A stretch of 20,787 bases of DNA from a virus. Positions 858 to 19,816 of the stretch are shown one piece after another (position 1 is the stretch's first letter; each line of letters starts with the position of its first letter). The stretch is taken from the IMG/VR virus record IMGVR_UViG_3300031975_002178, positions 1 through 20,787 of that record; one strand, 5' to 3'. The notes beneath the pieces were generated by a model. That model ran no database searches, was not told the origin of the DNA, and saw nothing but the letters and a program-made list of their open reading frames with translations. A program made the position numbers and the translations under genes.

Positions 858-3311
858 ATGGACAAGCGGGTTTTGAGCGAACGCGATATCTGCACGAAGT
901 TCATCACTCCTGCCCTCGTCACCGCAGGGTGGAACATCGCCACTCAGATCCGCGAAGAGGTCAGCTTTACTAAGGGGCGGATCATCGTGCGCGGAAAGAT
1001 GGTCAGCCGAGGAGAGGGCAAGCGCGCTGACTACATCCTCTCGGCCAAACCCAACATCCCGATCGCGATCATCGAGGCGAAAGACAACAACCAGCCTGTC
1101 GGTGGCGGCATGCAACAAGCGCTTGGCTATGCCGAAACGCTAGATATCCCGTTCGTTTTCTCGTCGAACGGCGACGGCTTTGTTTTCCATGACCGGACGG
1201 GCGCATCATCCGAAGTCGAGCAGACCTTGGGGATGGACGAGTTTCCCAGCCCTCAAGAGCTTTGGCACCGCTACAAATTCTGGAAGGGCCTGACCGACGC
1301 GGAAGAGAAGATCGCACTACAGGACTACCACGACGACGGGTCCGGCAAGGAGCCGCGGTACTACCAGGTCAACGCGATCAACAAGACGATGGAGGCGATT
1401 GCCAAGGGTCAGGATCGCGTATTGCTCGTCATGGCAACGGGGACAGGCAAGACCTATACGGCGTTTCAAATCATCTGGCGCTTTCTCAATGCGTTCCCGG
1501 GAAAGCGGGTTCTCTTCCTCGCCGACCGGAACGTGCTGATCGACCAGACCATGGTCAACGATTTTCGGCCCTTCAGCGGCAAGATGGCGAAACTGTCTAC
1601 ACAGTCGAAGACCATCGAGCGCCCGGACGGGACCAAGGAGAGCGTGACCCTCGCGTTGGACAAGAAGCGCCGGATCGACTCGTCCTACGAGATTTACCTT
1701 GGACTGTATCAGGCGATCACCGGGCCGAACGAGAGCCAGAAGATCTACCGCGAATTCTCCAAGGACTTCTTCGACCTAATCATCATCGATGAATGCCATA
1801 GGGGCAGCGCGTCGGCGGACTCGGCCTGGCGCGAAATCCTCGATCATTTCTCTTCCGCGGTGCAGATCGGCCTGACCGCGACGCCGAAGGAGACGGAGTA
1901 TGCCTCGAACATCGATTACTTCGGCGCACCGGTCTACAGCTACACCTTGAAGCAAGGCATCCGCGACGGGTTCCTCGCTCCCTACAAGGTCATCAAGGTC
2001 CATATCGACCGCGACGTGCAGGGGTATCGCCCCGAGAAGGGGCAGTTGGATCGTGACGGCGAAGAGGTCGAGGATCGGATCTACAACGCCAAGGACTTCG
2101 ACCGCACCGTGGTGTTGGACGACCGGACCAAGCTCGTCGCGAAGAAGGTGACCGAGTTCCTTCGCGAAAGCGGGGACCCCATGGCGAAGACCATCGTCTT
2201 TTGCGTGGATCAGGAGCACGCTGCGCGTATGCGGCAGGCCTTGATCAACGAGAATGCCGACCTCGTCGCGAAAAACGCGCGCTATGTCATGCGCATCACC
2301 GGGAACGACAAGGAAGGTATCGACCAGCTCGGGAACTTCATCGACCCCGAGGCTTCCTACCCCGTGATCGTCACGACATCCAAGCTGTTGTCCACGGGCG
2401 TCGATGCGCAGACCTGCCGCCTGATCGTGCTTGATCGCGAGGTCGGGTCTATGACCGAGTTCAAGCAGATCGTCGGGCGCGGCACGCGCGTGCACGAAGA
2501 CACCCGGAAGCTTTTCTTCACGCTGATGGATTTCCGTGGGGCGTCCAGCCATTTTGCCGATCCCGACTTCGATGGCGAACCGGTCCAGATTGACCAGCCC
2601 GGGCCGGGTGATCCGGTGACCCCCCCGGATGAGACGCCAACCAACAACGATGACACCTCGATCCCGGATGACATCGGTGAGGACGAAACCGTCCTGATCG
2701 ATCCGCGCAACGACACCATCACGAGCGACACCACCACCGGTCCGCGCCCGAAGGTCTACATCGACGGCGTTGGTGCCGATATCGTGGCCGAGCGCGTCGA
2801 GTACCTAGACGAGAACGGCAGGCTCGTGACGGAGTCCTTGCGTGACTACACACGCAAAGCCATGCGCCAGCGGTTCGCCAGCCTCGATGACTTCCTGCGT
2901 CGCTGGAAGCAGACCGAACGCAAGAACGCACTCATCGAGAAACTTGCCGAAGAAGGGCTACCCCTCGACGTGATCGCCGACGAACTGGGTCTCGATCTCG
3001 ACCCCTTCGACGTGATCTGCCACATCGCCTTTGACGCCAAACCGCTGACCCGCAAGGAGCGCGCCGAGAACGTCAAGAAACGCGATGTCTTCACGAAATA
3101 CGGCCCCCAGGCCCGCGCGGTCCTCGAAGCCCTGCTCGAGAAATACTCCGACGACGGCGTCATCAGTATCGACGATCCCAAGATCCTGAAAATCAATCCC
3201 TTCTCCGGCATGGGCACCGAGGTTGAACTGATCCGGGCTTTCGGTAAGAAACCGGACTACATCCGCGCCGTGCATGAAATGCAGGCGGCGCTCTACGAAG
3301 AAAGTGCCTGA
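858..3311 (+). CDS. hsdR: Type I restriction endonuclease subunit R (HsdR, EcoEI/EcoAI-like)
   Basis: This is the motor and nuclease subunit of a type I R-M complex. It translocates DNA using ATP and cuts far from the recognition site when the site is unmethylated. The 817-aa length fits the shorter EcoEI-type R subunits. The N-terminal nuclease shows D58 (RADYIL), E73-A-K75 (IIEAKDN) and a QQALGYAE motif at about 86-93. The SF2 motor shows Walker A ATGTGKT (193-199), the DEAD-box variant DECH (311-314), TAT (340-342) and motif VI QIVGRGTR (537-544). The C-terminal ~200 residues match the helical EcoEI_R_C region that binds the methylase core. It is followed by hsdM after 2 bp, so it is co-transcribed. 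All key residues are present, so restriction is expected to be active. Confidence 0.96.
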   Translation: MDKRVLSERDICTKFITPALVTAGWNIATQIREEVSFTKGRIIVRGKMVSRGEGKRADYILSAKPNIPIAIIEAKDNNQPVGGGMQQALGYAETLDIPFVFSSNGDGFVFHDRTGASSEVEQTLGMDEFPSPQELWHRYKFWKGLTDAEEKIALQDYHDDGSGKEPRYYQVNAINKTMEAIAKGQDRVLLVMATGTGKTYTAFQIIWRFLNAFPGKRVLFLADRNVLIDQTMVNDFRPFSGKMAKLSTQSKTIERPDGTKESVTLALDKKRRIDSSYEIYLGLYQAITGPNESQKIYREFSKDFFDLIIIDECHRGSASADSAWREILDHFSSAVQIGLTATPKETEYASNIDYFGAPVYSYTLKQGIRDGFLAPYKVIKVHIDRDVQGYRPEKGQLDRDGEEVEDRIYNAKDFDRTVVLDDRTKLVAKKVTEFLRESGDPMAKTIVFCVDQEHAARMRQALINENADLVAKNARYVMRITGNDKEGIDQLGNFIDPEASYPVIVTTSKLLSTGVDAQTCRLIVLDREVGSMTEFKQIVGRGTRVHEDTRKLFFTLMDFRGASSHFADPDFDGEPVQIDQPGPGDPVTPPDETPTNNDDTSIPDDIGEDETVLIDPRNDTITSDTTTGPRPKVYIDGVGADIVAERVEYLDENGRLVTESLRDYTRKAMRQRFASLDDFLRRWKQTERKNALIEKLAEEGLPLDVIADELGLDLDPFDVICHIAFDAKPLTRKERAENVKKRDVFTKYGPQARAVLEALLEKYSDDGVISIDDPKILKINPFSGMGTEVELIRAFGKKPDYIRAVHEMQAALYEESA

Positions 3312-3313
3312 CC

Positions 3314-4762
3314 ATGTCCGTCCGCAACCTCGTCAAATCCATTCAGGACATCATGCGCAAGGACACCGGCGTCGACGGTGACGCGCAGCGCATGTCGCAG
3401 CTGGTCTGGATGTTCTTCCTCAAGATCATGGACGACCAGGACGAGGCGCTCGAAATCACCCTGGACGACTACTCCTCGCCCATCCCCGAGGACCTGCAAT
3501 GGCGCTCCTGGGCGGCCGATCCCGAGGGCATCACCGGCGACACCCTGCTGACCTTCGTCAATGACGACCTCTTCCCGCGCCTCAAGATCCTGTCGCCGCA
3601 GAAGGGTCCCCGCGCCAAGGTCGTGCGCGACGTCTTCGAGGATGCCTACAACTACATGAAATCCGGCCAGCTCATGCGGCAGGTGATCAACAAGATCAAC
3701 GAGGTCGACTTCAACAACCTGTCGGAGCGCCAGCACTTCGGCGACATCTACGAACAGCTGCTGAACGACCTGCAGAACGCGGGCAACGCCGGCGAATACT
3801 ACACGCCCCGCGCCGTCACCGCCTTCATGGTGCAGCAGATGGACCCGAAGCCCGGCGAGATCCTCATGGACCCTGCCTGCGGCACCGGCGGCTTCCTGAC
3901 CTGCGCCATGCGCCACATGCGCGACAAACACATCAAGCGCCCCGAAGACGAGACGCTGATGCAGGCCTCCCTGCGCGCGGTCGAAAAGAAACCGCTCCCC
4001 CACATGCTCTGCGTCACCAACATGCTGCTGCACGGGGTCGAGGAGCCGTCCTGGGTCCGCCATGACAACACGCTTGCCCGCCCGCTGGTCAGCTGGGGAC
4101 AGGCCGACAAGGTCGACATCGTCCTGTCGAACCCGCCCTTCGGCGGCAAGGAGGAGGACGGGATCGAGAACAACTTCCCCACCTTCCGCACCCGCGAAAC
4201 CGCGGACCTCTTCCTGGCGCTAATCATCCGCCTGCTCAAGGACACGGGCCGCGCCGCAGTGGTCCTGCCCGATGGCTCGCTCTTTGGCGAGGGCATCAAG
4301 ACCCGGCTGAAGGAACACCTGCTCGAGGAATGCAACCTTCACACCATTGTGCGGCTGCCGAACTCGGTCTTCAAACCCTACGCCTCCATCGGCACCAACC
4401 TGCTGTTCTTTGAAAAGGGGACGCCGACGCAGGACATCTGGTATTGGGAACACCGCGTCCCCGAGACGCAGAAGGCCTATTCCATGACCAAGCCGATCCG
4501 GCTGGAGCATCTGGACGACTGCGCCGCATGGTGGGGCGGGTCGACCCGCGAGGGGCGGCAGGAAAGCGAGCGCGCCTGGAAGGTGTCGATCGACGAGATT
4601 CGCGAACGCGGCTTCAACCTCGACATCAAGAATCCGCATGTCGAAGACGTGGACCATGGCGAGCCGGAGGAACTGCTGGCCGACCTGCAACGCGCCGAAG
4701 CCTCGGTCGACCACCTGCGGGCCGAGCTGAAGGCGATCCTGACCGAGGCGCTGGCGCGATGA
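3314..4762 (+). CDS. hsdM: Type I restriction-modification DNA methyltransferase subunit M (HsdM)
   Basis: This is a SAM-dependent adenine-N6 methyltransferase that with HsdS forms the modification enzyme and with HsdR the full restriction complex. The N-terminal helical domain (about residues 1-150) leads into YEQLLNDLQNAG, then the SAM-binding motif DPACGTGGF (186-194) and the catalytic motif IV NPPFGG (273-278). The length of 482 aa is normal for the family. A C-terminal stretch rich in E, L and A (about 455-482) looks like a coiled coil, as expected for contacts with HsdS. It starts 2 bp after the hsdR stop and its stop overlaps the hsdS start (ATGA at 4759-4762), so M and S translation is probably coupled. 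Confidence 0.97.
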   Translation: MSVRNLVKSIQDIMRKDTGVDGDAQRMSQLVWMFFLKIMDDQDEALEITLDDYSSPIPEDLQWRSWAADPEGITGDTLLTFVNDDLFPRLKILSPQKGPRAKVVRDVFEDAYNYMKSGQLMRQVINKINEVDFNNLSERQHFGDIYEQLLNDLQNAGNAGEYYTPRAVTAFMVQQMDPKPGEILMDPACGTGGFLTCAMRHMRDKHIKRPEDETLMQASLRAVEKKPLPHMLCVTNMLLHGVEEPSWVRHDNTLARPLVSWGQADKVDIVLSNPPFGGKEEDGIENNFPTFRTRETADLFLALIIRLLKDTGRAAVVLPDGSLFGEGIKTRLKEHLLEECNLHTIVRLPNSVFKPYASIGTNLLFFEKGTPTQDIWYWEHRVPETQKAYSMTKPIRLEHLDDCAAWWGGSTREGRQESERAWKVSIDEIRERGFNLDIKNPHVEDVDHGEPEELLADLQRAEASVDHLRAELKAILTEALAR

Positions 4763-6396
4763 ACGCGGAACGGTTGCTGGAAGTCTACGAGCAGATCAGC
4801 GAAGCGCCGGATGCCATCGCCCGGCTGCGGCGGTTCGTGTTGGATTTGGCGGTGCGCGGGAAGCTGGTGGAGCAAGACGTTTCAGAGGCTTCGGAGCAGG
4901 TCGGCTTCGAACCTCACATCAATGATGCTCCTTACGAATTGCCTGCCAATTGGCGATGGATGCGCATTGGCGATCAGCTGGACTTGCTCAACGGTATGGC
5001 GTTCAAGCCAACTGATTGGATTTCAGAGGGGCTACGAATTGTCAGAATTCAAAACCTCAACAACCCTGATGCGCCGTATAACTTATGCGATCCTGCCATG
5101 GCCCGGAATCGATCCCTGATCGACAACGGCAGCTTTCTAATCAGCTGGTCCGGCACCCCAGGCACTTCATTCGGTGCCTTCATCTGGGATCGAGGGCCAG
5201 CGGTTCTGAACCAGCACATTTTCCGCTGTGACTTTCAAACCGATGCCTATACCCCTGAGTTTCTAAAGCTGGCCATCAATGGTCGCTTGGACGAGATGAT
5301 AGAAAAAGCCCACGGGGGAGTTGGGCTTCGCCACATCACCAAGGGCAAACTTCAGGCAATGTTGATTGCCGTCCCCCCTCTCGCCGAGCAGCACCGGATC
5401 GTCGCCAAGGTCGATGAACTCATGGCGCTCTGTGATCGGTTGGAGGAGGCCCGCAAGACGCGGGAAAAGGTGCGCGACAAGCTCACCGCCGCCAGCCTCG
5501 CCCGCCTGACCGCCCCAGATACCACGGCAGAGGACTTCCCCACCCACGCCGCCTTCGCCCTCGAGGCGCTCCCCGCACTCACCACGCGCCCCAACCAGAT
5601 CAAATCCCTCCGCCAAACCATCCTCAACCTCGCAGTCCGCGGCAAATTGGTGGAACAGCAGGCGCTTGAAGGGACTGGGCAGGAACTGATGTCCACTATC
5701 GCTTCCAGCCTTGGTCGCCGAACATTCGCGCGTGCAGACTCGAGCTTGATCGATTTTCCCATTCCTGAAGGCTGGGACCTGAGAAGCCTGGATGCGATCA
5801 CAGAGAATGGGCCGAAGAATGGCCTTTCTCCGACCAAGACCGAAAACCCTTCGGCCCCAAAGGCAATCACACTAACAGCGACAACCAGTGGTCAGTTTGA
5901 TGGCCGCCACTTCAAGCGAGTGGATGTTTCGTTGACTGCCGCTGAACCATTCTGGCTGCAACCGAATGATTTGCTATTCCAGCGTGGAAACACGCCGGAA
6001 TATGTCGGGATGGCGGCAATTTACGATGGCCCTGAAAGAGAGTTTCTCTATCCTGATCTTATCATGCGCGTCCGTATTACTTCCGCGATGAGCCTGCGCT
6101 TCGTTCACCTATGGTGCATTTCGCCTGTAGCCCGTGGCTACTTGATGGCGAACGCTACCGGCGCTCAAAAAACCATGCCGAAAATAAATCAAGGGGTTTT
6201 GAGAGAGCTTCCCATCATGATCCCCCCTCTTGCCGAACAACACCGCATCGTGGCCAAGGTCGATGCCCTCGTGGCCCTTTGCGACCGTCTGGAGGCCGCC
6301 CTGGCCACCACCGACACCACCCGAACCCGCCTCCTCGAAGCCCTCCTCCACGGGGCGCTGGAACCCGCCCCAGAAACCTTGGAAGCCGCCGAATGA
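4759..6396 (+). CDS. hsdS: Type I restriction-modification specificity subunit S (HsdS)
   Basis: HsdS sets the bipartite recognition sequence for the hsdRMS complex. The start at 4759 (ATGA overlap with hsdM) gives 545 aa; upstream sequence in the same frame is an hsdM shadow. There is a clear internal duplication. LRRFVLDLAVRGKLVEQ (about 23-39) is repeated as LRQTILNLAVRGKLVEQ (about 284-300). PLAEQHRIVAKVDELMALCD (about 208-227) is repeated as PLAEQHRIVAKVDALVALCD (about 491-510). Each conserved block precedes or follows a variable target-recognition domain (about 50-205 and 310-488). The two variable domains have visibly lower GC than the repeats, a sign of domain exchange. The downstream gene overlaps by ATGA at 6393-6396. 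Confidence 0.96.
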   Translation: MNAERLLEVYEQISEAPDAIARLRRFVLDLAVRGKLVEQDVSEASEQVGFEPHINDAPYELPANWRWMRIGDQLDLLNGMAFKPTDWISEGLRIVRIQNLNNPDAPYNLCDPAMARNRSLIDNGSFLISWSGTPGTSFGAFIWDRGPAVLNQHIFRCDFQTDAYTPEFLKLAINGRLDEMIEKAHGGVGLRHITKGKLQAMLIAVPPLAEQHRIVAKVDELMALCDRLEEARKTREKVRDKLTAASLARLTAPDTTAEDFPTHAAFALEALPALTTRPNQIKSLRQTILNLAVRGKLVEQQALEGTGQELMSTIASSLGRRTFARADSSLIDFPIPEGWDLRSLDAITENGPKNGLSPTKTENPSAPKAITLTATTSGQFDGRHFKRVDVSLTAAEPFWLQPNDLLFQRGNTPEYVGMAAIYDGPEREFLYPDLIMRVRITSAMSLRFVHLWCISPVARGYLMANATGAQKTMPKINQGVLRELPIMIPPLAEQHRIVAKVDALVALCDRLEAALATTDTTRTRLLEALLHGALEPAPETLEAAE

Positions 6397-6863
6397 GCGA
6401 GGACGTCGACTGGACGCGCGTCGCCGCCTTGCTCGACGATCTCTACAACGCTGCCGATGGCCTCGAACGGATCTTCCCCGGCCGGAAATTCACCCTCGAC
6501 GGCCATCTCGTCGGCAGCGTCGGCGAGGTCGTCGCCGCCTACATGTTCGACCTCGACCTGAACCCGGCCTCCACCCACGGCCACGACGCCCGCGCCCGCG
6601 ATGGTCGCCAGGTCGAGATCAAGCTGACCCAGGGCCGTGGCGTCGCCATCCGCCACGAGCCCGAACACCTGATCGTCCTGCACCGCCCCGCAGGCGGCCC
6701 GATCCGCGTGGTCTTCAACGGCCCCGGTCCCGTCGCATGGGCCGCCTCTGGCGCGATGCAAAGGAACGGCCAGCGCCCAATTTCACTCGCCCGCCTGACC
6801 GCACTGTCGAACGACGTGGCCGAGCAAGACCGACTGCCACTCCTGCGCCCTCCACCCGTCTGA
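6393..6863 (+). CDS. DUF6998-type protein, hsd-operon accessory, possible PD-(D/E)XK fold
   Basis: This 156-aa protein starts inside the hsdS stop (ATGA), so it is the fourth gene of the restriction operon. It resembles DUF6998 proteins, which I recall beside restriction systems; the function is not established to my knowledge. Directly visible are GSVGEVVAAYMFDLDL (41-56), HGHDARARDGRQVEIKLTQG (62-81) and the tail EHLIVLHR...VVFNGPGPVAWAASG. E45, D65, E75-x-K77 and Q80 are spaced as in a PD-(D/E)XK nuclease core, so a nuclease-fold accessory subunit is an inference worth testing. It could instead be a structural or inhibitory partner. No signal peptide or membrane segment is seen. Confidence 0.8.
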   Translation: MSEDVDWTRVAALLDDLYNAADGLERIFPGRKFTLDGHLVGSVGEVVAAYMFDLDLNPASTHGHDARARDGRQVEIKLTQGRGVAIRHEPEHLIVLHRPAGGPIRVVFNGPGPVAWAASGAMQRNGQRPISLARLTALSNDVAEQDRLPLLRPPPV

Positions 6864-7050
6864 CCCCATCGGGCCTCCGCAGTCCGCGTGCCCATGAAGA
6901 GCACGTCACGAGCAACGCCCAAGGTCTGCCCCTATCGGTACCTCGACTGACGAACGTCAGCCGGGACAGCAGAAAAATCTCTCCTGAATAAAATCAGCGT
7001 GGTGTAGTGATCGTTCCAGCCCAGTCAGGCTCACACCGCGATCATGGGGT
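6864..7050. other. Convergent intergenic region between hsd operon and mobile-element remnant
   Basis: No gene is seen. A small perfect hairpin CTGACG-AA-CGTCAG lies at 6947-6960, followed after about 10 bases by AGCAGAAAAATC. It might be a weak terminator for the hsd operon, but the stem is short and there is no clean T-run. This is the likely boundary between the restriction locus and the integrated element; no obvious att repeat was found by eye. Confidence 0.35.
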
Positions 7051-7593
7051 CTAGAGGTTTCGGTCCAACTTCCGACGCGCCTCTAGCACCTTGATCTTGG
7101 CTTCCAACTCCTTGTTTGACAAAGCGGCTAATGCCGCGCGACTCGAGCTTTCGTTTGTGTCTTCACCACCATTCCACTCCGTCGCGCTCCATTCGTTTCG
7201 GCGGCGCAATTGCAGCCAATGAATGGCCGCCTTGGTGTCGGGAGGAATTTCTGCCATGGTCTGGGTGACAACGATCTCACCTTGATTGTTTTTCAATGCC
7301 TTCTCGGATTTCACGGTCATCCCGATGGCGCGCTTGTAGAGGGCAAAGGCAACGTCGGCGTCCGCGATTTCCTTTCCTCTATGAACCGCGTCACGAAAAC
7401 CGGGATATTCAGCTTTCCAGCGATGGAAGGTGTTGCGGCTGACATCGAAGAATGTCGCCATCTGGCCCTCCGTCAGGCCGAGCAGGGCAAGTTTGTAGGC
7501 TTGGTCGTCCATTGCCGGATCATAACCACAGGCGCGACCTGGACCAGGTTCCGTGCCGTTCAAGTAGCGGCCATTGCTATCTCGCTTTTCCAT
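7051..7593 (-). CDS. Terminase small subunit-like DNA-binding protein (orphan TerS)
   Basis: It resembles a family of short phage proteins that recognise packaging sites. A helix-turn-helix is visible at about residues 38-61 (GLTEGQMATFFDVSRNTFHR). This is followed by the family-like stretch GKEIADADVAFALYKRAIGM (73-92), the phrase IPPDTKAAIHWLQLRRRNEW (116-135), and a charged C-terminal helix (about 158-177). I chose the ATG at 7593 (180 aa) because GGGACGG precedes it; an ATG at 7605 has no ribosome binding site. No large terminase or portal follows: the next gene on that side is the convergent hsd operon. It is therefore an orphan, as in phage satellites or eroded prophages. It could also be a plain HTH regulator. 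Confidence 0.75.
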   Translation of the reverse strand: MEKRDSNGRYLNGTEPGPGRACGYDPAMDDQAYKLALLGLTEGQMATFFDVSRNTFHRWKAEYPGFRDAVHRGKEIADADVAFALYKRAIGMTVKSEKALKNNQGEIVVTQTMAEIPPDTKAAIHWLQLRRRNEWSATEWNGGEDTNESSSRAALAALSNKELEAKIKVLEARRKLDRNL

Positions 7594-7645
7594 ATTCCGT
7601 CCCATGATCGATTGTTTGTGAGGGTGGCGCAGCCAATCTCTCCAG

Positions 7646-7744
7646 CGTGACGAGCGTGACACCTCCTAGAGGTGTGTCACGCTCGTCACGGCCAAATTGA
7701 GCCGCACGTGTCACGCACGGTGACGGGATGTCACGTTGGTCACG
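7646..7744. repeat. Iteron-like array of GTCAC/GTGAC words with a perfect 17-bp inverted repeat
   Basis: Eight copies of GTCAC or GTGAC, seven flanked as CGTGAC/GTCACG, are packed into 99 bp: near 7646, 7655, 7676, 7685, 7710, 7720, 7730 and 7739. The first four form a perfect inverted repeat with arms 7646-7662 and 7674-7690 (CGTGACGAGCGTGACAC and its complement) around an 11-nt centre that is itself partly palindromic. The array sits between the stop of the helicase remnant (5 bp away) and the TerS-like gene. It could be a replication origin, a packaging site or an operator for the TerS gene. Confidence 0.8.
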
Positions 7745-7748
7745 GTGC

Positions 7749-8276
7749 TCAATCATCATCTTGCACCCTCCACACGTGGTCGCCCCACTCGCGCACCTCG
7801 TTCATGTCCATCAGCTTGTCCTTGGCTCGCTTGAAGGCTTGCCGCCCCGCGCTATCGCTTGTGCCAGAGGTCAGGCCGTGAACAGCACACGCGTCCCGCC
7901 AGCGATCCACATGGACCACCTTGCGGTTGCTGGGGTATGCGTTGCCGCTCTTGGTCTCGCCGTGTTCGCGCAGGGCGTCATACAGCGCCTGCATGGCCAC
8001 CTCGTTCTTGCCCGTCAGGGCCTTGCGTTCTTTCTTGGGGGGCTCGCTGGCCTCGACCACCGCGCTTGTGACCTGATCACCGGCCTCGTCCGATATGCCG
8101 CCGTCGTCATACTGATCGCGGACCAGCACCCAGCCCTCTGACCGCTGGCTGGCGATATACGCCTCGCAAGCCTCGCGCTGGGCGTGCAGGCTGTTGAATT
8201 CCTGCTCCAGCCCTTCCTCGGAGGATTTCCGGGTGTAGACTGCGCAGCGCAGCTTGCGGACGACGGGTTTCGTCAT
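7749..8276 (-). pseudogene. Chimeric ORF: serine recombinase N-terminus fused to RepA-like helicase C-terminus
   Basis: The 175-aa ORF begins as a large serine recombinase: CAVYTRKSSEEGLEQEFNSL (11-30) contains the catalytic serine, and it continues to QYDDGGIS (about 55-62). Instead of the rest of the resolvase domain and the DNA-binding/zinc part (normally several hundred residues), it switches to DEAGDQVTSAVVEASEPPKK and then MQALYDALREHGE, RWRDACAVHG and AFKRAKDKL, ending WGDHVWRVQ. That second part resembles the C-terminal wHTH tail of phage/plasmid RepA-like AAA helicases. The junction lies near 8090 and is in frame, so a deletion is the simplest explanation. The start at 8276 overlaps the DUF2924 stop (ATGA). 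Recombinase activity is almost certainly lost. Confidence 0.8.
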
Positions 8277-8728
8277 GTCCGCCCCCTGTGGTTCTTGAGC
8301 CCGAAGAATACCCAGCCGTTCCAGCGCGTGCCGGTGATAGCGCGTGCGATGGCGGACAGCGACTTGTACGGCCGCCCCTGCCATTCGAAGCCGTCAGCGG
8401 TGACCGTGACGATGTATTCGACGCCCTGCCATTCGCGCAGAAGGCGCGTGCCGGTGATGGGGCGGTCGCGGTCGAGGCGCAGTCCGCGCTTCTTCTTGTC
8501 GCCGCCGTCGAGTTCCTCACCGAGCCATTCCAGCCGCCGGACGGTCTCAGGCTTCAGCCCGCCATAGGCGAGTTCCTGGATGCGGTAGGCCAGGCGGGAT
8601 TCAAGGTAGCGCCGGTTGAAGGGTGGCGGCTCGCTGTCGAACAGGTCGCGCCATTGCTTCTTCAGGTCTGGCGTCGGGGTGGTCTTCAGCGCGGCCAAGC
8701 GCGCGGGGATGGGGTCATGTGTCGTCAT
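8273..8728 (-). CDS. DUF2924 domain-containing protein, recombinase-associated
   Basis: The 151-aa protein resembles DUF2924, a family commonly encoded directly upstream of large serine recombinases in alphaproteobacterial prophages; its molecular role is unknown to me. Recognisable parts are LKKQWRDLFDSEPPPFNRRY and LESRLAYRIQELAYGGLKPE in the first half, then RLLREWQGVEYIVTVTADGF and EWQGRPYKSLSAIARAITGT near the end. I chose the ATG at 8728, preceded by GGAG at good distance and overlapping the upstream gene's stop (ATGA); an ATG at 8764 is possible but inside that gene. Its own stop overlaps the recombinase start. It appears intact, although the recombinase beside it is broken. A role with the recombinase, for example in binding or directionality, is only inference. 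Confidence 0.9.
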   Translation of the reverse strand: MTTHDPIPARLAALKTTPTPDLKKQWRDLFDSEPPPFNRRYLESRLAYRIQELAYGGLKPETVRRLEWLGEELDGGDKKKRGLRLDRDRPITGTRLLREWQGVEYIVTVTADGFEWQGRPYKSLSAIARAITGTRWNGWVFFGLKNHRGRT

Positions 8729-8928
8729 GCGGTCTCCGTGGGGTTCGGGGTTGCATGACGGCATCGGTCAGCCGGATAGTGTAGGCGAATTTCTCCAGTA
8801 TCGTCAGAAGGTTCTCCCCGCTGGCGTTGCATCAAGCGCACCAGCCCGAGGGCGAGCAACCCGCACAATTCAGCGCGACGCTCGGCAGGCGTCATCTGAT
8901 TGGGTGGCAGTGGATTGGGGCGTTTCAT
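8725..8928 (-). CDS. Small conserved hypothetical protein upstream of DUF2924 gene
   Basis: A 67-aa basic protein starting MKRPNPLPPNQMTPAERRAE, with a predicted helix ELCGLLALGLVRLMQRQRGE and the tail EIRLHYPADRCRHATPNPTE. I recall near-identical small proteins at the head of recombinase/DUF2924 operons in Rhodobacterales, but know no function. GAGG precedes the ATG at about 6-7 bases. Its stop overlaps the DUF2924 start by ATGA, so the three genes form one leftward operon. One Cys and two His residues are too few to argue for a metal site. Confidence 0.75.
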   Translation of the reverse strand: MKRPNPLPPNQMTPAERRAELCGLLALGLVRLMQRQRGEPSDDTGEIRLHYPADRCRHATPNPTETA

Positions 8929-9209
8929 GCGGGCCTCGGAGCGGTCGTCTCCTTGGGCCTCTACTCACCGGACTTGGCGACCGTCCCAAGCATCGCCGGA
9001 AGCAGGCGCAAGAGGATCATGGGACTCGACTCTCGGTTGATTTCGCGGCAGGAACACAATAAGAACATCTTTCCTCCTCCCGAGGTGAATCGGCGTTAAT
9101 GCGCCCTTCGGTCCCCAGCGCGGTATTTCGCGCCCCGGCGTGCCGACCGGCGGTTCCTGAGCCGTGTTCTTTGTTCGGAATGAAGGGTTCAGGATCGTAG
9201 GAAGCACAA
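8929..9209. promoter_or_regulatory. Divergent control region between recombinase operon and 412/331-aa unit
   Basis: No gene is seen in these 281 bp, which must hold promoters for both directions. The best rightward candidate is TTGATT at 9037-9042, a 17-bp spacer, then TAAGAA at 9060-9065, which would give a leader of about 140 nt before the ATG at 9210. That ATG is preceded by TAGGAAG. A short hairpin GCGCG-GTATTT-CGCGC lies in the leader near 9118-9133. No clear leftward promoter was recognised. Confidence 0.35.
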
Positions 9210-10448
9210 ATGTCCAAAAGGATCAGGAATTTCATCGACCGCGCCTTCTCGAGAACCGTCGATCTCGGAATGCTTCACCGTTTTCTGTCCCCGTATCTCG
9301 GGCAGATCGGATTGGATTGGGATTCGCTCCCCGCTGACGAAGCGAAAAGGCGCGAGACCATCTTCAGTCTCTTCGCCAAAGCCGATTTAAAATTTCCGGC
9401 AAAGCTTCAATTCGCTCTCTACAACATTTCCACACTGTCCACGGAAGCCGGTGCCCGGATCATCCAGGAGATCGCGTCGGAATCAGGCGTCGACGTCCTG
9501 GCGCCCCATCGTGTTGATGGCAGCCCCGACGATCTGCGTTTCACCCCGCGCTTCATGGCCTTGGCCACGTGGCTGGATCATCGTGCCCTTTTCGACAGGG
9601 CGCTGAGCGCGGCGGCCTTCCTCGCGCACTCGACGAAGCTCGAGCGCGACGCCGACTGCGAAGACGTCGAGCCCCGGCATCAGGAAATCGGTGTGAAGGA
9701 AGCGTTCTCGGAAGCCGTGCGGCTGCATTTCGCCGGACGGTACAACGGGCATTGCTGCGACGTGCGGTGGTTCGAAGAGGAGGATCTGCTGCGGGTGCTG
9801 ATCCTGCATGGCTCCAAGCCGGAGACGAAGAATGTCGATCAGGAAGGCGCGGAGGACACCCTGAAGTTCCGAGAAATCGTCCAGTCGACCATCGAATACG
9901 ACCCGCGCCAGGGGGCGATCGCCGTCGGCTCGAAGTCGGCAACCGATGCCAAGAAGCTTGTGAAGCTCTTCGGCGGCCACGTTCTGGGGGACGAGGATAT
10001 CTTCGAGGCGTCGGCGAAGGAGCAGCTCTACACGCTCGTGCCGCTTCAGAAACAGGGCGCGGCGTTCAAGTTCCACTTCGCCCCAGAAGGCGACATCACC
10101 CATGTCGCCCTGCGCGAGGTGCGCGTCGATGAGGCCCAGATCACCACGACGGGACGGCTGCGGCGCTCGCCGTGGTTCCTGACGCTCGGCGATTCCGAGA
10201 ATGCGCTGAAGCGCCTGAAGATCGTCGCACCGGAAATCGAGATCGACGATATCCGCATTGTCCACGCAAAGATCGATGTGACTATCGAGGTGGACGACAG
10301 CGAGACCGTGGTCCCGGTGACGATCCGGCCGCCGCGCACTGTCAGCATGCGCGACCACTCGCACGAACGGCTCATTCTCGAAATGCTGGAAAACAATGAC
10401 ATTCGCAAACGCCGCAGAACTGATCAGGCTGCTGCTGCGGCAGAGTGA
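9210..10448 (+). CDS. Uncharacterised 412-aa protein, first gene of a two-gene unit
   Basis: I do not recognise a function. The protein is soluble-looking, with no signal peptide or membrane segment. The N-terminal ~110 residues are helical (RNFIDRAFSRTVDLGMLHRF; ETIFSLFAKADLKFPAKLQF). A central mixed region includes LHFAGRYNGHCCDVRWFEEE and DLLRVLILHGSKPETKNVDQ, then IEYDPRQGAIAVGSKSATDA and KLVKLFGGHVLGDEDIF. The last third is rich in beta-type stretches, ending in a basic tail NNDIRKRRRTDQ and a run of alanines. RBS TAGGAAG supports the start. The next gene begins 53 nt before this stop, a strong sign of coupled expression. It lies in the cargo/immunity slot of the element, so a regulator or defence partner is possible but unproven. 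Confidence 0.85.
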   Translation: MSKRIRNFIDRAFSRTVDLGMLHRFLSPYLGQIGLDWDSLPADEAKRRETIFSLFAKADLKFPAKLQFALYNISTLSTEAGARIIQEIASESGVDVLAPHRVDGSPDDLRFTPRFMALATWLDHRALFDRALSAAAFLAHSTKLERDADCEDVEPRHQEIGVKEAFSEAVRLHFAGRYNGHCCDVRWFEEEDLLRVLILHGSKPETKNVDQEGAEDTLKFREIVQSTIEYDPRQGAIAVGSKSATDAKKLVKLFGGHVLGDEDIFEASAKEQLYTLVPLQKQGAAFKFHFAPEGDITHVALREVRVDEAQITTTGRLRRSPWFLTLGDSENALKRLKIVAPEIEIDDIRIVHAKIDVTIEVDDSETVVPVTIRPPRTVSMRDHSHERLILEMLENNDIRKRRRTDQAAAAAE

Positions 10449-11391
10449 TCGTCACCCAATCCGTGCCGTCGGTGCGGCCGAACTTGAGCCTTATGATCCG
10501 CGCTTCGTCCGATCGCTGCGCAATATCGGGGTCCTGGCGGACCGGGAGGATCAGCGCGACGATGGCACTGCGGTTTTCCAGGTGGTCGACAGTGAACTGA
10601 TCGTCGTCGACCCCGAGACAGGCGAGTGCGAACGTCACGTCGATGCGCTGGATATCCAGTCGTTCGACATCGACATCGCTGCCCTCTGCCGCGCGATACG
10701 AGAGCAGTCGGGACTGAAGGGGCCGGGACCGGTTGCGATCTCGGCCAGGATTTGGCGGCTCGGTCGCCACGAACAGCATGGTCGAACTGCCGAAATCTGC
10801 CTCGTGCGCCGACTGCGGGAGGAGACTGCGCAAGAAATCGTGGACCATGTGCGCGGCGCCATCGACAGCGAAACGCCTGTTGCCCTGATCAGTCTCGGCG
10901 ATTGCGACGTGCCGACGGCAGTCGCTCGCCAGCTCGACGGCCTCCGCCTGAAGGTTGCCCGCGCCGTCGATCTGCTGCGCGACGACCGGGAACGCCCCTT
11001 CGCGCTCGATCTCGGTCGGGTTCGGGTGCCCACGGGACAGCAGGCCCCGGACGCGCGCCTCCAGATCGACCGTATCGGCCGCCGGGTGATCTTCGAACGC
11101 ATCGAAATTGACATCGAGCCGCGGGACTTCGACGCCTTCGCCCTGCTCGCGGAAGAGGCCATGGCCGCCGGGGGCTGGGTTTCAAAGGACGCTCTGGCGG
11201 CAACGCTTCAGGCGAGCACAGGGCGAGAGAGTAATCCCGAACAGGTAGATCGCTGCATCAACCGGCTGCGCGATGCGTTCCGAAAGAACACGCGGCTAAG
11301 TGCGGTCCCGAGCAACGGGTTCATCGACCGCAAGTCCAAGGTCGGCGCACGTCTCGACCTCGCATCCTCCGGGATCGCGTTCATCGCGTAG
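10396..11391 (+). CDS. Uncharacterised 331-aa protein with C-terminal OmpR-like winged helix
   Basis: The C-terminal ~95 residues look like a winged-helix DNA-binding domain: DRIGRRVIFERIEIDIEPRD (about 225-244), then FALLAEEAMAAGGWVSKDAL (248-267), and a recognition-helix-like VDRCINRLRDAFRKN (284-298) followed by a wing ending NGFI. The N-terminus (AELIRLLLRQSDRHPIRAVG, then RFVRSLRNIGVLAD) also looks like a small winged helix. The middle contains no receiver domain or recognisable enzyme motif, so it is not a standard response regulator. It starts at an ATG inside the preceding gene, overlapping it by 53 nt. Together they could act as a DNA-binding regulator or sensor for the element, perhaps with the 412-aa protein as signal partner. 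Family not recognised. Confidence 0.8.
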   Translation: MTFANAAELIRLLLRQSDRHPIRAVGAAELEPYDPRFVRSLRNIGVLADREDQRDDGTAVFQVVDSELIVVDPETGECERHVDALDIQSFDIDIAALCRAIREQSGLKGPGPVAISARIWRLGRHEQHGRTAEICLVRRLREETAQEIVDHVRGAIDSETPVALISLGDCDVPTAVARQLDGLRLKVARAVDLLRDDRERPFALDLGRVRVPTGQQAPDARLQIDRIGRRVIFERIEIDIEPRDFDAFALLAEEAMAAGGWVSKDALAATLQASTGRESNPEQVDRCINRLRDAFRKNTRLSAVPSNGFIDRKSKVGARLDLASSGIAFIA

Positions 11392-11508
11392 ATCCGTTTT
11401 CCGGCACCGGGAGGTTTTCGGGAGGTTTCCGGGAGAACCCCGAGAGATAAAGTATTTCAAAAGGTTGCATCTTCGACTGGTCAACGCAAACGACCAGGAT
11501 CGAAACAG
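11392..11508. promoter_or_regulatory. Upstream region of sigma-factor gene with tandem 11-mers and an operator-like inverted repeat
   Basis: Two 11-bp direct repeats plus a partial third copy (GGGAGGTTTTC, GGGAGGTTTCC, GGGAG) fill 11409-11435. A perfect 6-bp inverted repeat CTGGTC-N9-GACCAG spans 11477-11497, ending 11 bp before the ATG at 11509 and overlapping the likely ribosome binding site. Both look like protein-binding sites controlling the sigma gene and the operon behind it. An AT-richer stretch (GATAAAGTATTTCAAAAGG) between them could hold a -10 element. Confidence 0.5.
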
Positions 11509-12102
11509 ATGCTCCCTCCCATTTCCCACGACGACCTTGCCACGCTGATCGACGAGGCGGCCGTCGCCGCGCGCCGCCTGCACCGCAAGCTGATGCTGCC
11601 CGCCGCCGATCTCGACGATCTCCGCCAGGACCTGCTGGTCGACCTGATCTGCCGGTTGCCCGGCTTCGATCCGCGCCGCGGCAGCATCGGCGCCTTCGCC
11701 AACATCGTCCTGCGCAATCAGTCCTCGCGCATCGCGATCCGCCATCATCGCGAGCGTCGCGCGCAGGGCGGATCGCTGCTCTACCTCGAAGTCCCGCTCG
11801 CCGGGAGCAAGGAGCCGGTCGGCGACACGCTGACCGAGGATGACGGGCTGGCCGCCTGGCATGGCCACAGCTGCTGCGCGGTTTCGGTCAGCAACGAGCG
11901 CCGCGCGCTGGAGACCGCGCTCGCGAAGCTGACGGCGGAGGACCGCCGCTTCTGCGGCGCGCTGGCAGATCGCTCTGTCCCCGCGCTGGCGGCCGCGGGG
12001 TTCGGGAGCCGGTCAGCGCTCTACCGCCGCCTGACCGATCTCCGTCACGTCCTCACCGCCCACGGTCTCGGTCCCGCCTGGGACGATCTCGTGGCGGCCT
12101 GA
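11509..12102 (+). CDS. Sigma-70 family RNA polymerase sigma factor-like protein, element-encoded
   Basis: The 197-aa protein has the two-domain layout of a small sigma factor. A region-2-like part (about residues 15-85) contains AADLDDLRQDLLVDLICRLP, then GFDPRRGSIGAFANIVLRNQ and SSRIAIRHHRERRA, matching the region 2.1-2.4 pattern. A linker follows, then a region-4-like part (about 130-190) with ALETALAKLTAEDRRFCGAL and a helix-turn-helix GFGSRSALYRRLTDLRHVL. It heads the right-hand operon, which suggests it steers host RNA polymerase to element promoters, though its targets cannot be seen. The ATG is preceded by CAGGAT and an inverted repeat that could allow autoregulation. It is divergent from housekeeping sigmas in length and sequence. 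It could also be a sigma-like DNA-binding protein without sigma activity. Confidence 0.8.
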   Translation: MLPPISHDDLATLIDEAAVAARRLHRKLMLPAADLDDLRQDLLVDLICRLPGFDPRRGSIGAFANIVLRNQSSRIAIRHHRERRAQGGSLLYLEVPLAGSKEPVGDTLTEDDGLAAWHGHSCCAVSVSNERRALETALAKLTAEDRRFCGALADRSVPALAAAGFGSRSALYRRLTDLRHVLTAHGLGPAWDDLVAA

Positions 12103-16627: not shown

Positions 16628-17394
16628 CTCTCGATTACAATCATCGGCCCAATTTCGCCGACCGGGTCAACGCCGCCATCGACCGGGCGCTGACCGCCGA
16701 TCAAGCGACGCGGCCGCCCCGCGACTACCTCGGCGGCTCGCGTCTCGGCCATGCCTGCGAGCGCGCCCTGCAGTTCGAGTTCACGGCAACGCCGAAGGAC
16801 GAGGGTCAGGATTTCAGCGGCCAATCGCTGCGCATCTTCGCCATCGGCCATGCGCTCGAGGATCTGGCCGTCGCCTGGCTGCGCGGCGCGGGCTTCGACC
16901 TCTACACCCGCAAGGGCAACCGGCCCGATGGCGGCCAGTTCGGCTTCTCGGTCGCGGGCGGGCGTATCCGGGGCCATGTCGACGGCATCATTGCCGCCGG
17001 GCCCGAGGGCTTCGGTCTCGCCGTTCCCGCGCTCTGGGAATGCAAGACGATGAACGCGAAGAACTGGCGCGCCTGCGTCAAGGACGGCGTGACCAAGTCG
17101 AAGCCGGTCTACGCCGCCCAGATCGCGCTCTATCAGGCCTACATGGAAACCAGCGTGCCAGGCATCAGCGCCGCGCCTGCCGTGTTCACCGCGATCAACA
17201 AGGACACGGCCGAGATGCACCACGAACTGGTGCCATTCGACGCCGACCTCGCGCAGCGCATGTCCGACCGGGGCGTGCGGATCCTGCAGGCGACCGATGC
17301 GGGCGAGTTGCTGCCGCGCGTCGCCACTACGCCTGACTTCTTCGAATGCCGCTTCTGCCCGTGGTCCGAGCGCTGCTGGGGGCTGCCGGCATGA
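16624..17394 (+). CDS. PD-(D/E)XK exonuclease, Cas4/RecB-like with a Fe-S-type cysteine set
   Basis: The 256-aa protein shows the nuclease core: GHALED (75-80), GHVDGI with D120, WECKT with E139 and K141, and QIALY (Q166, Y170). Four cysteines are placed as in Cas4/AddB-type iron-sulfur nucleases: C45 near the N-terminus (GSRLGHACERAL) and C242, C245, C251 at the very end (ECRFCPWSERC). It likely resects DNA ends to give single strands for the Sak4-like recombinase upstream. The start is TTG at 16624, preceded by GGAGG 7-8 bases away and overlapping the previous stop (TTGA); no in-frame ATG exists before the conserved core. The stop overlaps the primase gene by ATGA, so expression is coupled. 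Confidence 0.9.
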   Translation: MTLDYNHRPNFADRVNAAIDRALTADQATRPPRDYLGGSRLGHACERALQFEFTATPKDEGQDFSGQSLRIFAIGHALEDLAVAWLRGAGFDLYTRKGNRPDGGQFGFSVAGGRIRGHVDGIIAAGPEGFGLAVPALWECKTMNAKNWRACVKDGVTKSKPVYAAQIALYQAYMETSVPGISAAPAVFTAINKDTAEMHHELVPFDADLAQRMSDRGVRILQATDAGELLPRVATTPDFFECRFCPWSERCWGLPA

Positions 17395-19685
17395 GCGACG
17401 ACGGCGTCCTGCATTTCAACCCGTGGATGGACTTCAACGACGGGCCACCGTCCGAGAACCCGTTCGGCTGCGACCCCGACCCCGGGCAGATCGCCGTCTT
17501 CCTCGACACCGTGTTCAGCTGGTGCGAGGGGCTGATCCCGCTCCGGGGTTTCGTCGACAAGGGTCAGGGCCGGGACGGCAAGCCGCACAACATCTGGATC
17601 CCCGCCGACGACACCGCGCCCGAGAAACTCGCGACCTTCGCCACATGGGCCAATCGCGAGGGGGCGGCCGTCTATGTCATCCCTGGCACCGTCGCCGAAC
17701 AGGGTCACGCTCGCGCCGCAGACGTCCTTCAGATGCAGGCCATCGTCGTCGATCTCGACGCGGGCGACATCCCGGCCAAGCTGGACCACGTCACCCGCCA
17801 CCTCGGCCCGCCCACGCTGATCATCGAAAGCGGCGGGCGCACGCCAGAGGGCGCCGCGAAGCTCCATGTCTGGTGGAAACTGACCGAGCCCGCCGAGAGC
17901 GACGACCTGGCCACCCTCTGCCGCCTTCGCGGCGAGATCGCCGTAAAGGTCGGCGGCGACACGCATTTCCGCTCGGCACACCAGCCGATCCGGGTGCCCG
18001 GCACGGTCTATCACAAGCACGGCCACCAGCGCCTCGTGCAGATCCGCGAACATCGCGACGTCGAGGTGGATCTTGCGGATTTCGCCGAAAAGGTCGCCGA
18101 GATGCCGCCGCTGCCGGGCGTGGGCTTCGCCCGCGACGCGGCCGCGCCGACCGCGACGCCCGGCCTCGACGCGGTGCTCACCACACCGGTGCGCGAGGGC
18201 GCGGTGGACGACTGGTCCCGGTTCCAGGGGGCCAGCGCCGCCATCGGCCATTACGTCCGCCTTGTGCACGAGGGCCGCCTCGATCCCTTCGCGGGCTGGG
18301 AGGCGATCTGCGGCTACAACGCCGCCATGCTGCGCCCGTCCTGGCCGCTTGATCGGCTGCAGGCCGAGTCTGAACGCCTCTGGGCGCTGCATGTGAAGCG
18401 CAACGGCCCTCCGCTCCTGCGTGCGGCCCACGCCGACGCCCCGGCCAGCCCATTGCCGACCTTCAGCCTCGGCGCGCTGCTCGACGACACGAGCCCGATG
18501 CCCGAGGACATCATCGGCCCCCGCGTGCTGACCCCGGGCGGTCTCTTGGTGCTGGGCGGCGCGCCCAAGGTCGGCAAGAGCGACTTCCTGATCTCATGGC
18601 TCGTGCACATGGCCGCTGGCGTGCCGTTCCTCGGCTTCACGCCGCCCCGGCCGCTGCGCGTGTTCTACCTGCAGGCAGAGATCCAGTATCACTACCTGCG
18701 CGAGCGCATGCAGCAGATCGCGCTGCCCGCCGCCGTGATCGCAGCCGCGCGCGACACCTTCATCGCCACGCCGAAACTGAAGCTGCTGCTCGACGCGGAG
18801 GGCGTCGCCCGCGTGGCCGAGGCGATCCGCGCGGCATTCCCCGACGCGCCGCCCGACATCATCGTCATCGACCCGATCCGCAACCTCTTCGATGGCGGGC
18901 CGGAAGGTGGCGGCGAGAACGACAACACCGCCATGATGTTCTTCCTGAAGGACCGGGTCGAGCTCCTGCGCGAGGCGGTCAATCCGGACGCGGGCGTCAT
19001 CCTCGCCCACCACACCCGCAAGGCCAGCAAGCACCAGGTCAAGGACGACCCCTTCCTCGCACTCTCCGGCGCCAGCGCGCTGCGCGGCTTCTACACCTCG
19101 GGGCTGCTCATGCACCGGCCCGACGAGGACAGCAGCGTCCGCAGGCTGGAGATAGAGCTGCGCAACGGCCCCGCGCTACCGGCAAAGCTCATCGACAAGC
19201 GACACGGCGCGTGGGTTGAGATCAACCCGATGAACGAGCGCCTGGTGCGTCAGGAGGTCGGCGCGAAACACGACGCCGAGCGCAATCGCAAGGGCGATGT
19301 CATCCTGAGCATGCTGTTCGAGGAAGCCGCCGAGGGGCGTCTCTACACCTCGACGCAATCCGGGGCCGCCTTCGAGAACCAGCATGGTCTGGGAAGCGAG
19401 TTCACCATCCGGCAGCGCCTGAACGTCCTGGCGACGAAAGGCTTCGTGAAGTTTCGCCGCGATCTGGCCGAACATGGCTTCCCGGCGACCCGCTCGCACT
19501 TCGGCTACCTCTGTGTCGAGGAGATGCGTTTCGGCCGCGATCCGGCGATCGATCCCGACACGGGCGAAGTCCTGGCGGAAGGCGAGCCGGTGCTTCCGAC
19601 CCACTTCAAATGCCCCCATTCCGGTCGTGCGCGGGAGGTCGAGAACCCCGCGGTCTGGGTCTATCCGGAGGGCCTGGAGGAATGA
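17391..19685 (+). CDS. AEP-like primase fused to RepA-like replicative helicase
   Basis: A 764-aa replication protein. The N-terminal ~230 residues look like a primase-polymerase of the RepB/AEP type: IVVDLDAGD with D121 and D123, LIIESGGRTPEGAAKLHVWW (H159), and IRVPGTVYHKHG (200-211). A helicase core follows with Walker A GGAPKVGKS (389-397), RVFYLQAEI after strand 2, Walker B IIVIDP (490-495), and AHHTRK (539-544), as in hexameric RepA/AAA_25 helicases. The last ~110 residues (GLGSEFTIRQRLNVLATKGF) resemble a winged helix that could read DNA. The start (ATGA overlap) removes 15 residues of an upstream open frame. An iteron-like array begins 3 bp after the stop, which suggests this protein binds an origin there. 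It probably initiates element replication. Confidence 0.88.
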   Translation: MSDDGVLHFNPWMDFNDGPPSENPFGCDPDPGQIAVFLDTVFSWCEGLIPLRGFVDKGQGRDGKPHNIWIPADDTAPEKLATFATWANREGAAVYVIPGTVAEQGHARAADVLQMQAIVVDLDAGDIPAKLDHVTRHLGPPTLIIESGGRTPEGAAKLHVWWKLTEPAESDDLATLCRLRGEIAVKVGGDTHFRSAHQPIRVPGTVYHKHGHQRLVQIREHRDVEVDLADFAEKVAEMPPLPGVGFARDAAAPTATPGLDAVLTTPVREGAVDDWSRFQGASAAIGHYVRLVHEGRLDPFAGWEAICGYNAAMLRPSWPLDRLQAESERLWALHVKRNGPPLLRAAHADAPASPLPTFSLGALLDDTSPMPEDIIGPRVLTPGGLLVLGGAPKVGKSDFLISWLVHMAAGVPFLGFTPPRPLRVFYLQAEIQYHYLRERMQQIALPAAVIAAARDTFIATPKLKLLLDAEGVARVAEAIRAAFPDAPPDIIVIDPIRNLFDGGPEGGGENDNTAMMFFLKDRVELLREAVNPDAGVILAHHTRKASKHQVKDDPFLALSGASALRGFYTSGLLMHRPDEDSSVRRLEIELRNGPALPAKLIDKRHGAWVEINPMNERLVRQEVGAKHDAERNRKGDVILSMLFEEAAEGRLYTSTQSGAAFENQHGLGSEFTIRQRLNVLATKGFVKFRRDLAEHGFPATRSHFGYLCVEEMRFGRDPAIDPDTGEVLAEGEPVLPTHFKCPHSGRAREVENPAVWVYPEGLEE

Positions 19686-19797
19686 CTTTGTCATATGACA
19701 GAGGCCTCTCTCATCCTCATGCCTCTGTCATATCCGCAATGAAATCAACGGCTTGGGGATGAGCCATGACAAAGACCACTGTCATGCCCTCTGTCAT
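19682..19797. repeat. Iteron-like array of TGTCAT/ATGACA words downstream of the primase-helicase gene
   Basis: Six exact TGTCAT or ATGACA hexamers (near 19689, 19695, 19726, 19766, 19780, 19792), plus an extra ATGAC at 19682, lie within about 115 bp. They include a perfect 12-bp palindrome TGTCATATGACA (19689-19700), a 13-bp inverted repeat ATATGACAGAGGC (19693-19705 with 19721-19733), and ATGACA-N8-TGTCAT (19766-19785). There is no T-run, so a terminator is unlikely. An origin bound by the adjacent replication protein, or an operator for the following genes, is the best reading. Confidence 0.75.
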
Positions 19798-19816
19798 AAA
19801 ATCAGGAGAAAACACC

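Follow-up and report, generated by a model that had tools for sequence, protein, structure and literature searches.

We propose that a cluster of GTCAC/GTGAC words at positions 7646-7744 of a virus contig is a set of replication-origin iterons, and that these are read by the C-terminal domain (CTD) of the adjacent initiator via a short code in its recognition helix. We consider this reading highly probable. The sequence that we analyzed, which we will call the window, is the whole of a 20,787-nt record (a 20.8-kb virus contig without known neighbors). In the window, the initiator gene has lost its motor and its 3' end is fused to part of another gene, so most of the evidence comes from intact relatives.

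The array and its neighbors in the window

The array (7646-7744, minus strand, in the reading direction of the rep remnant) has the word CGTGACA. The eight GTCAC/GTGAC words start at 7647, 7656, 7676, 7685, 7710, 7720, 7730, and 7739. In the reading direction they form pair 1 (7743-7730), a mixed pair 2 (7724-7710), pair 3 (7689-7676), and an inverted pair 4 (7660-7647). Pairs 3 and 4 make up a perfect 17-bp inverted repeat around ACCTCCTAGAGGT (7646-7690, no strand), with arms at 7646-7662 and 7674-7690 that are 100% complementary and have 11 nt between them. This inverted repeat is conserved in relatives as CGTNACnAACGTNAC-ACACCTCTAGGAGGTGT-NACGnTTGTNACG. The last word ends 5 bp short of the stop codon of the ORF at 7749-8276 (minus strand); read on that strand, the array begins 5 bp past this stop and finishes 40 bp short of the gene for the terminase small subunit (TerS). 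An initial annotation of this DNA had described eight words in 99 bp, four of them in a perfect 17-bp inverted repeat, beginning 5 bp away from the stop codon that ends a RepA-like C-terminus, and the coordinates and the complementarity of the arms confirm all of this.

The number of words in these 99 bp is far above chance. The initial annotation had suggested shuffling the sequence, and when the 99 bp were shuffled 20,000 times with dinucleotides preserved, no shuffle reached 7 words (the maximum was 6, which occurred 13 times), which puts eight words beyond chance. Averaged over the window, there are 0.2 words per 99 bp. It had also been suggested that a conserved coding gene across the array might account for the words. 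Translations of the array differ between relatives, as do translations of a GGTCCCAATGCCCC motif that follows it in some of them, so conserved coding sequence is ruled out for both. The array has no match in Rfam to a structured RNA, and we identified no AT-rich melting region.

Judging from homology, the ORF at 7749-8276 is a chimera of the N-terminus of a serine recombinase and the CTD of an RSF1010-RepA-like (AAA_25) helicase. Its first ~60 codons (8092-8276, minus strand) come from the large serine recombinase of a phage and run up to YDDGGIS (phrog_95 and nucleotide homology), and are in frame with the Rep C-terminus. Next to it is a DUF2924 gene (8273-8764, minus strand; PF11149, E = 7.8e-52), which is normally found 5' of the serine recombinase and is colinear with the genes in prophages. 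The window's nucleotide homology with prophage regions that have DUF2924 and an intact recombinase spans 8092 to beyond 9000, and it breaks off at 8087-8092. The remaining 343 bp of the ORF (7749-8091, minus strand) encode the C-terminal winged-helix domain of an AAA_25 RepA-like initiator, as indicated by identity to intact Reps, an AlphaFold2 model, and pN/pS; it is 74-80% identical over 107 amino acids to intact proteins from Rhodobacteraceae and IMG/VR contigs. Its recognition helix is DSAGRQAFKRAKDKL, and the key residue is Q. In the Pfam search, 7749-8276 had no AAA domain (the motor is missing from the window's copy, and the recombinase N-terminus is in its place) and no match to CRP. 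There was no match to the window's CTD in the phage collection. The ORF had been described as a helicase remnant; it does have a RepA-like C-terminus, but only the DNA-binding domain, fused in frame to a recombinase N-terminus.

The gene just past the array (7051-7605, minus strand) encodes TerS, as the initial annotation had it (phrog_309, E = 4.9e-38). A close search for relatives of this TerS in viral contigs found none, and the only matches were to distant phage TerS proteins, so there is no evidence from synteny on the TerS side. Adjoining the TerS gene, the region 858-6396 seems to encode all three subunits (R, M, and S) of a type I restriction-modification system, an annotation made by reading the sequence.

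Arrays behind intact initiator genes

The initial annotation had proposed looking for intact copies of this helicase elsewhere, and had taken unrelated sequence behind them as evidence against an origin. In about 20 relatives the helicase gene is intact, and behind it lies the same array, with matching position and internal layout. The intact helicases are 360-400 amino acids long and match AAA_25 in Pfam (PF13481, E = 5.6e-41 in the relative L011), and the helicase core is similar to RSF1010 RepA (PDB 1g8y, E = 3.8e-9). Within a few bases of the stop codon of the intact rep, we see pair 1, pair 2, a spacer, pair 3, a palindrome centered on CTCTAG, and the inverted pair 4. The middle base of the word varies between the relatives' loci (GTCAC, GTGAC, GTAAC, or GTTAC), and the words within a locus vary together.

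Most of these relatives are elements of ~10 kb from Rhodobacteraceae, with genes for an integrase, a PrimPol (where recognized), rep and its array, TerL, head closure, HNH, capsid, protease, and portal proteins. No tail genes were recognized in these ~10-kb elements. Given this size, the integrase, replication, and head genes, and the lack of recognized tail genes, we consider them to be cfPICI-like satellites. For example, L392 (about 2056-11892) has an integrase, replication genes, its own head genes, and no tail genes within the size of a satellite, and the genes that flank it beyond the portal are cellular. L392 and another satellite, L393, share these features and the ~10-kb size with cfPICIs, but their gene order is unlike that of the enteric cfPICIs. 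No TerS was recognized in L392 or L393.

In the Rhodobacteraceae satellites (such as L006 and L011), there is a conserved non-coding motif, TGGTCCCAATGCCCC, 3' of the array and ~120-140 bp past the rep stop codon; it is absent from the window. A motif ATCAAnGGGTT lies within many other arrays. Both motifs are possible candidates for primase or loading sites. L009 (1316-1560; the contig is shared with L024) has a frame-disrupted rep and then tandem arrays, GTTAC followed by GTCAC, before terL. In L038 and L039, the reading frame of Rep continues past the usual C-terminal end, and in L038 the extension reads as repeats of VTS/VTP/VTC, which is how it would look if the protein included a translation of the array.

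To see how widespread such arrays are, we assembled a set of AAA_25 Reps (from viral contigs, genomes, and plasmids), of which 240 were unique and had sufficient sequence 3' of the gene. (An array was called if there was a 6-mer array at p ≤ 0.01 within 180 bp past the stop codon, and equal-sized windows from the same loci were the controls.) A significant array lies 3' of rep in 205 of the 240 loci (85%), versus 1/240 of the control windows, and the first word is a median of 5 nt past the stop codon. So, these loci have the SaPI-like layout of short repeated words directly 3' of the gene for an initiator helicase. If we cluster the proteins, then arrays are present in 100 of 125 clusters at 70% identity and in 30 of 41 clusters at 50% identity. 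Among the 101 clusters at 70% identity that were counted as having arrays, there are 54 distinct top words, and distant homologues with unrelated downstream genes have arrays of another word. Of 27 more distant homologues newly sampled from genomes, only 10 had such an array, so the association is weaker outside the family.

The window's phage has an AAA_25 protein of its own, a primase-helicase (17346-19685, plus strand; PF13481 and phrog_13004), and this gene also follows the rule that the array is behind rep. Directly 3' of it is a second iteron array (19683-19800, plus strand) with six ATGACA/TGTCAT words and a AATGAAATCAACGGCTTGG motif inside (0/2000 shuffles). This second array is probably the phage's origin.

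These comparisons also bear on whether the array serves the terminase instead, as the initial annotation had offered as an alternative. In the satellites, the array sits between rep and terL, and in the window TerS is the next gene, so the array might be a packaging site (cos or pac) for the small terminase; the conserved GGTCCCAATGCCCC motif that follows the array in the satellites could then be a second site. However, arrays are found 3' of AAA_25 Reps with no adjacent terminase in the window's own phage, in most of the 240 loci, and in plasmid loci from Xanthobacter and Sinorhizobium (L026 and L028), and the word tracks the CTD of Rep (see below). We saw no association with terminase that was independent of rep: arrays follow rep with unrelated neighbors. 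Because they do so whatever gene is next, we reject the packaging site, which we consider to be very improbable.

Similarly, the array could be an operator for the TerS gene, which it lies upstream of, or a terminator for the rep transcript, as the inverted repeat has strong folding as single-stranded DNA (z = -5.2 for the array region, relative to shuffles). But we found no terminator-like or sigma-70-like site at the array and no run of T 3' of its hairpin, and arrays keep their place at the end of rep as the genes beyond them vary. A role as operator or terminator seems just as improbable as packaging.

The recognition helix and the iteron word

The word varies between elements and it tracks the CTD. 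For 105 non-redundant loci, we wrote the word in the form N1N2N3ACA and scored each column of the CTD against each base of the word. The column of Q84 in the window (in the motif R-Q-AF-K-RA) was the top column for N2 (mutual information of 0.93 bits, z = 17.0) and also for N3 (1.04 bits, z = 18.5); the next column after it reached a z of 13-14. When this key residue (X1) is K or R, N2N3 is GG in 48 of 51 cases; T goes with TC (10/13), Q with TG (9/11), and V with TA (4/6). The residue before it is equivalent to Arg180 of CRP, and where this is Q, N1 is C in 7/7 cases; overall, N1 is less well explained than N3. Exceptions to the code include L004 and L112 (M with GTCAC), L248 (Q with CAGACA), and L123 (A with GTCAC). 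When we inspected the fresh sample of distant homologues by hand, five had both an array and an alignable code residue, and N2N3 fits the code in L400, L413, L414, and L425 but not in L407.

Covariation might also arise if the CTD and the array are inherited together as a cassette, with shared ancestry and no direct reading. The CTD and the array do move jointly in some pairs: in L223/L177 and L227/L228, the motor DNA is 93-97% identical (the core is nearly identical in L223/L177), while the CTD and the array are down to about 50-65%. These sequences look like the result of an exchange of a CTD-origin cassette. But in other pairs the word was switched in place. L279 and L281 have CTDs that are 92% identical, with a change from K to Q in the helix; about ten words differ, GGGACA versus CGGACA, and the spacers are nearly unchanged. 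L012/L016 and L109/L011 are further in-place switches with CTDs that are otherwise near-identical. Shared ancestry alone also does not explain why the Q84 column outranks all other columns of the CTD. Among pairs with motor domains that are 85-99.5% identical, the key residue differs in 94% of the 32 pairs with different words and in 2% of the 186 pairs with the same word, but these are not independent pairs. The word changes at least 52 times on a motor-domain tree. Independent pairs chosen from the tree agreed with the code in 6.8 of 10 cases, with 0.0 against, on average (median p = 0.016), and some subtests of these pairs had too few pairs for significance. Given these results and the agreement with CRP's contact positions, which we describe next, we think that co-inheritance alone is quite unlikely, and we favor direct reading by the helix.

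We built an AlphaFold2 model of the window's CTD with 54 relatives (mean pLDDT 74.7). The model is a winged helix with a recognition helix and a wing, and the key residue lies within the helix at 79-95. The top matches in PDB from Foldseek are CRP-family domains, but these are weak (the first E-values are above 0.01). With VIA-align, the best matches are winged helices of Orc1/Cdc6 (Z = 9.2), and the CRP family has Z up to 8.0. The aligned end points place residue 109 of the model with residue 206 of CRP, which would put residue 84 at position 181 of CRP and R-Q-A-F-K-R on R180-E181-T-V-G-R185. We infer this register from the aligned end points and not from a residue-level superposition. In CRP, Arg180 contacts G2 of TGTGA, and Glu181 and Arg185 contact the G4:C4 pair (PMC11253593). 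If CGTGACA is laid on TGTGA, then N1 is predicted to pair with position 180 and N3 with position 181. The covariation agrees with both predictions, more weakly for N1.

The CTD seems to share the fold of the CRP/FNR winged-helix domain and the helix register R-x-x-F-x-R, its site CGTGACA corresponds to TGTGA, and the same positions appear to set the specificity (PMC11253593, PMC12531629). There are several differences. CRP's site is a 16-bp palindrome, while here there are direct pairs of words 9-10 bp apart and one inverted pair. CRP is a cAMP-responsive regulator, while the CTD belongs to a replication initiator. The CTD is joined to a helicase motor and not to an N-terminal cyclic-nucleotide or effector domain, so it does not belong to the CRP/FNR family of transcription factors. 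We describe it as a CRP-like winged helix for its predicted fold only, and we do not claim common ancestry.

A proposed origin and its relation to known systems

We propose that in an intact element, the RepA-like helicase, as a hexamer, would use its C-terminal winged helix to bind the words and would load directly behind its own gene, with primers from the primase that is encoded just upstream (PrimPol where recognized). The recognition helix would read N1-N2-N3-A-C-A in the manner of CRP: the Arg180 equivalent would read N1, the Glu181 equivalent (Q in the window) would read N3 and its neighbor, and the Arg185 equivalent hardly varies. A change in the helix would be accompanied by a change in all words of the array, either in place or by exchange of the CTD and the array as a cassette. 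In the window, a deletion probably fused the recombinase gene of the phage to the final ~110 codons of a rep gene, which would leave the array as an origin without a motor. The initial annotation had suggested a fossil or live origin, with iterons just after the rep gene, and the intact homologues with the same array in the same place support this.

That suggestion came from a comparison to SaPIs, which is apt for the iterons just 3' of rep but not for the type of helicase. In SaPI Rep and SCCmec Cch2, it was shown experimentally that the CTD of the initiator binds the origin iterons (PMC7581432 and works cited there). These are self-loading helicases whose CTD binds short iterons directly 3' of their own gene, and the layout here, a matched module of origin and initiator, is the same. 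However, SaPI and SCC helicases have SF3/D5-type AAA+ motors. The intact relatives match AAA_25 and 1g8y, so their motors have the RecA fold and are related to RSF1010 RepA, and we rule out the SaPI/SCC helicase family. Also, the primase here is a separate PrimPol gene, and the word varies widely between elements and follows the recognition-helix code. The intact relatives have the RecA-fold motor that defines the RSF1010 RepA-like class, and the window's copy does not. The RSF1010 RepA of the solved structure has 279 amino acids, and only its motor part is homologous to the relatives' helicase; the relatives have a C-terminal winged-helix domain in addition. The iterons of RSF1010 are bound by another protein, RepC. 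In the open-access literature, we found no description of an AAA_25 iteron family or of a code linking helix and iterons, only the SaPI/SCC work and work on PLE.

In PLE and its phage ICP1, the specificities of the initiator and of the iterons covary as modules, as they do here, although the initiator family (RepA_N) is unrelated (PMC7145576, PMC8263062). ICP1's Odn is a chimera that contains an initiator's DNA-binding domain, captured by the phage, and it acts as an anti-satellite protein against PLE (PMC8263062). The chimera in the window, a putative counterpart, also has such a domain but no nuclease.

As far as we can tell from the sequence, neither the CTD in the window nor any of the eight words has decayed: pN/pS for the CTD is 0.20-0.39, which is within the range for pairs of intact copies (median 0.25), and the CTD differs at only two invariant positions. 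With the motor lost, the element would be unable to replicate itself, so either the deletion was recent or the domain or the array is still useful. For instance, the fusion, the spare array, or both might be an anti-satellite device that occupies or titrates origins of the GTGAC type. The open, in-frame ORF and the lack of decay are consistent with this, as is the precedent of Odn, and if it is true, then this would be a second, unrelated example of how ICP1's Odn acts on PLE. But we found just one such case, the recombinase part is too short for a catalytic domain, we saw no promoter, and a recent deletion accounts equally well for the absence of decay. We regard an anti-satellite device as unlikely, if a little less so than the other alternatives above.

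The arrangement of an initiator followed by its own iterons was known from SaPIs. It now extends to another family of helicases, across phages, satellites, and plasmids, and almost every lineage has its own word. This gives a predicted replication origin, from sequence alone, for hundreds of uncharacterized phages and satellites. It also gives a short and testable recognition-helix code, at the equivalents of Arg180 and Glu181 of CRP, for the specificity of an initiator for its origin. The code bears on how replication incompatibility groups of phages and satellites arise, which may be through point mutations in a single helix along with a concerted switch of all iterons, or through swaps of cassettes.
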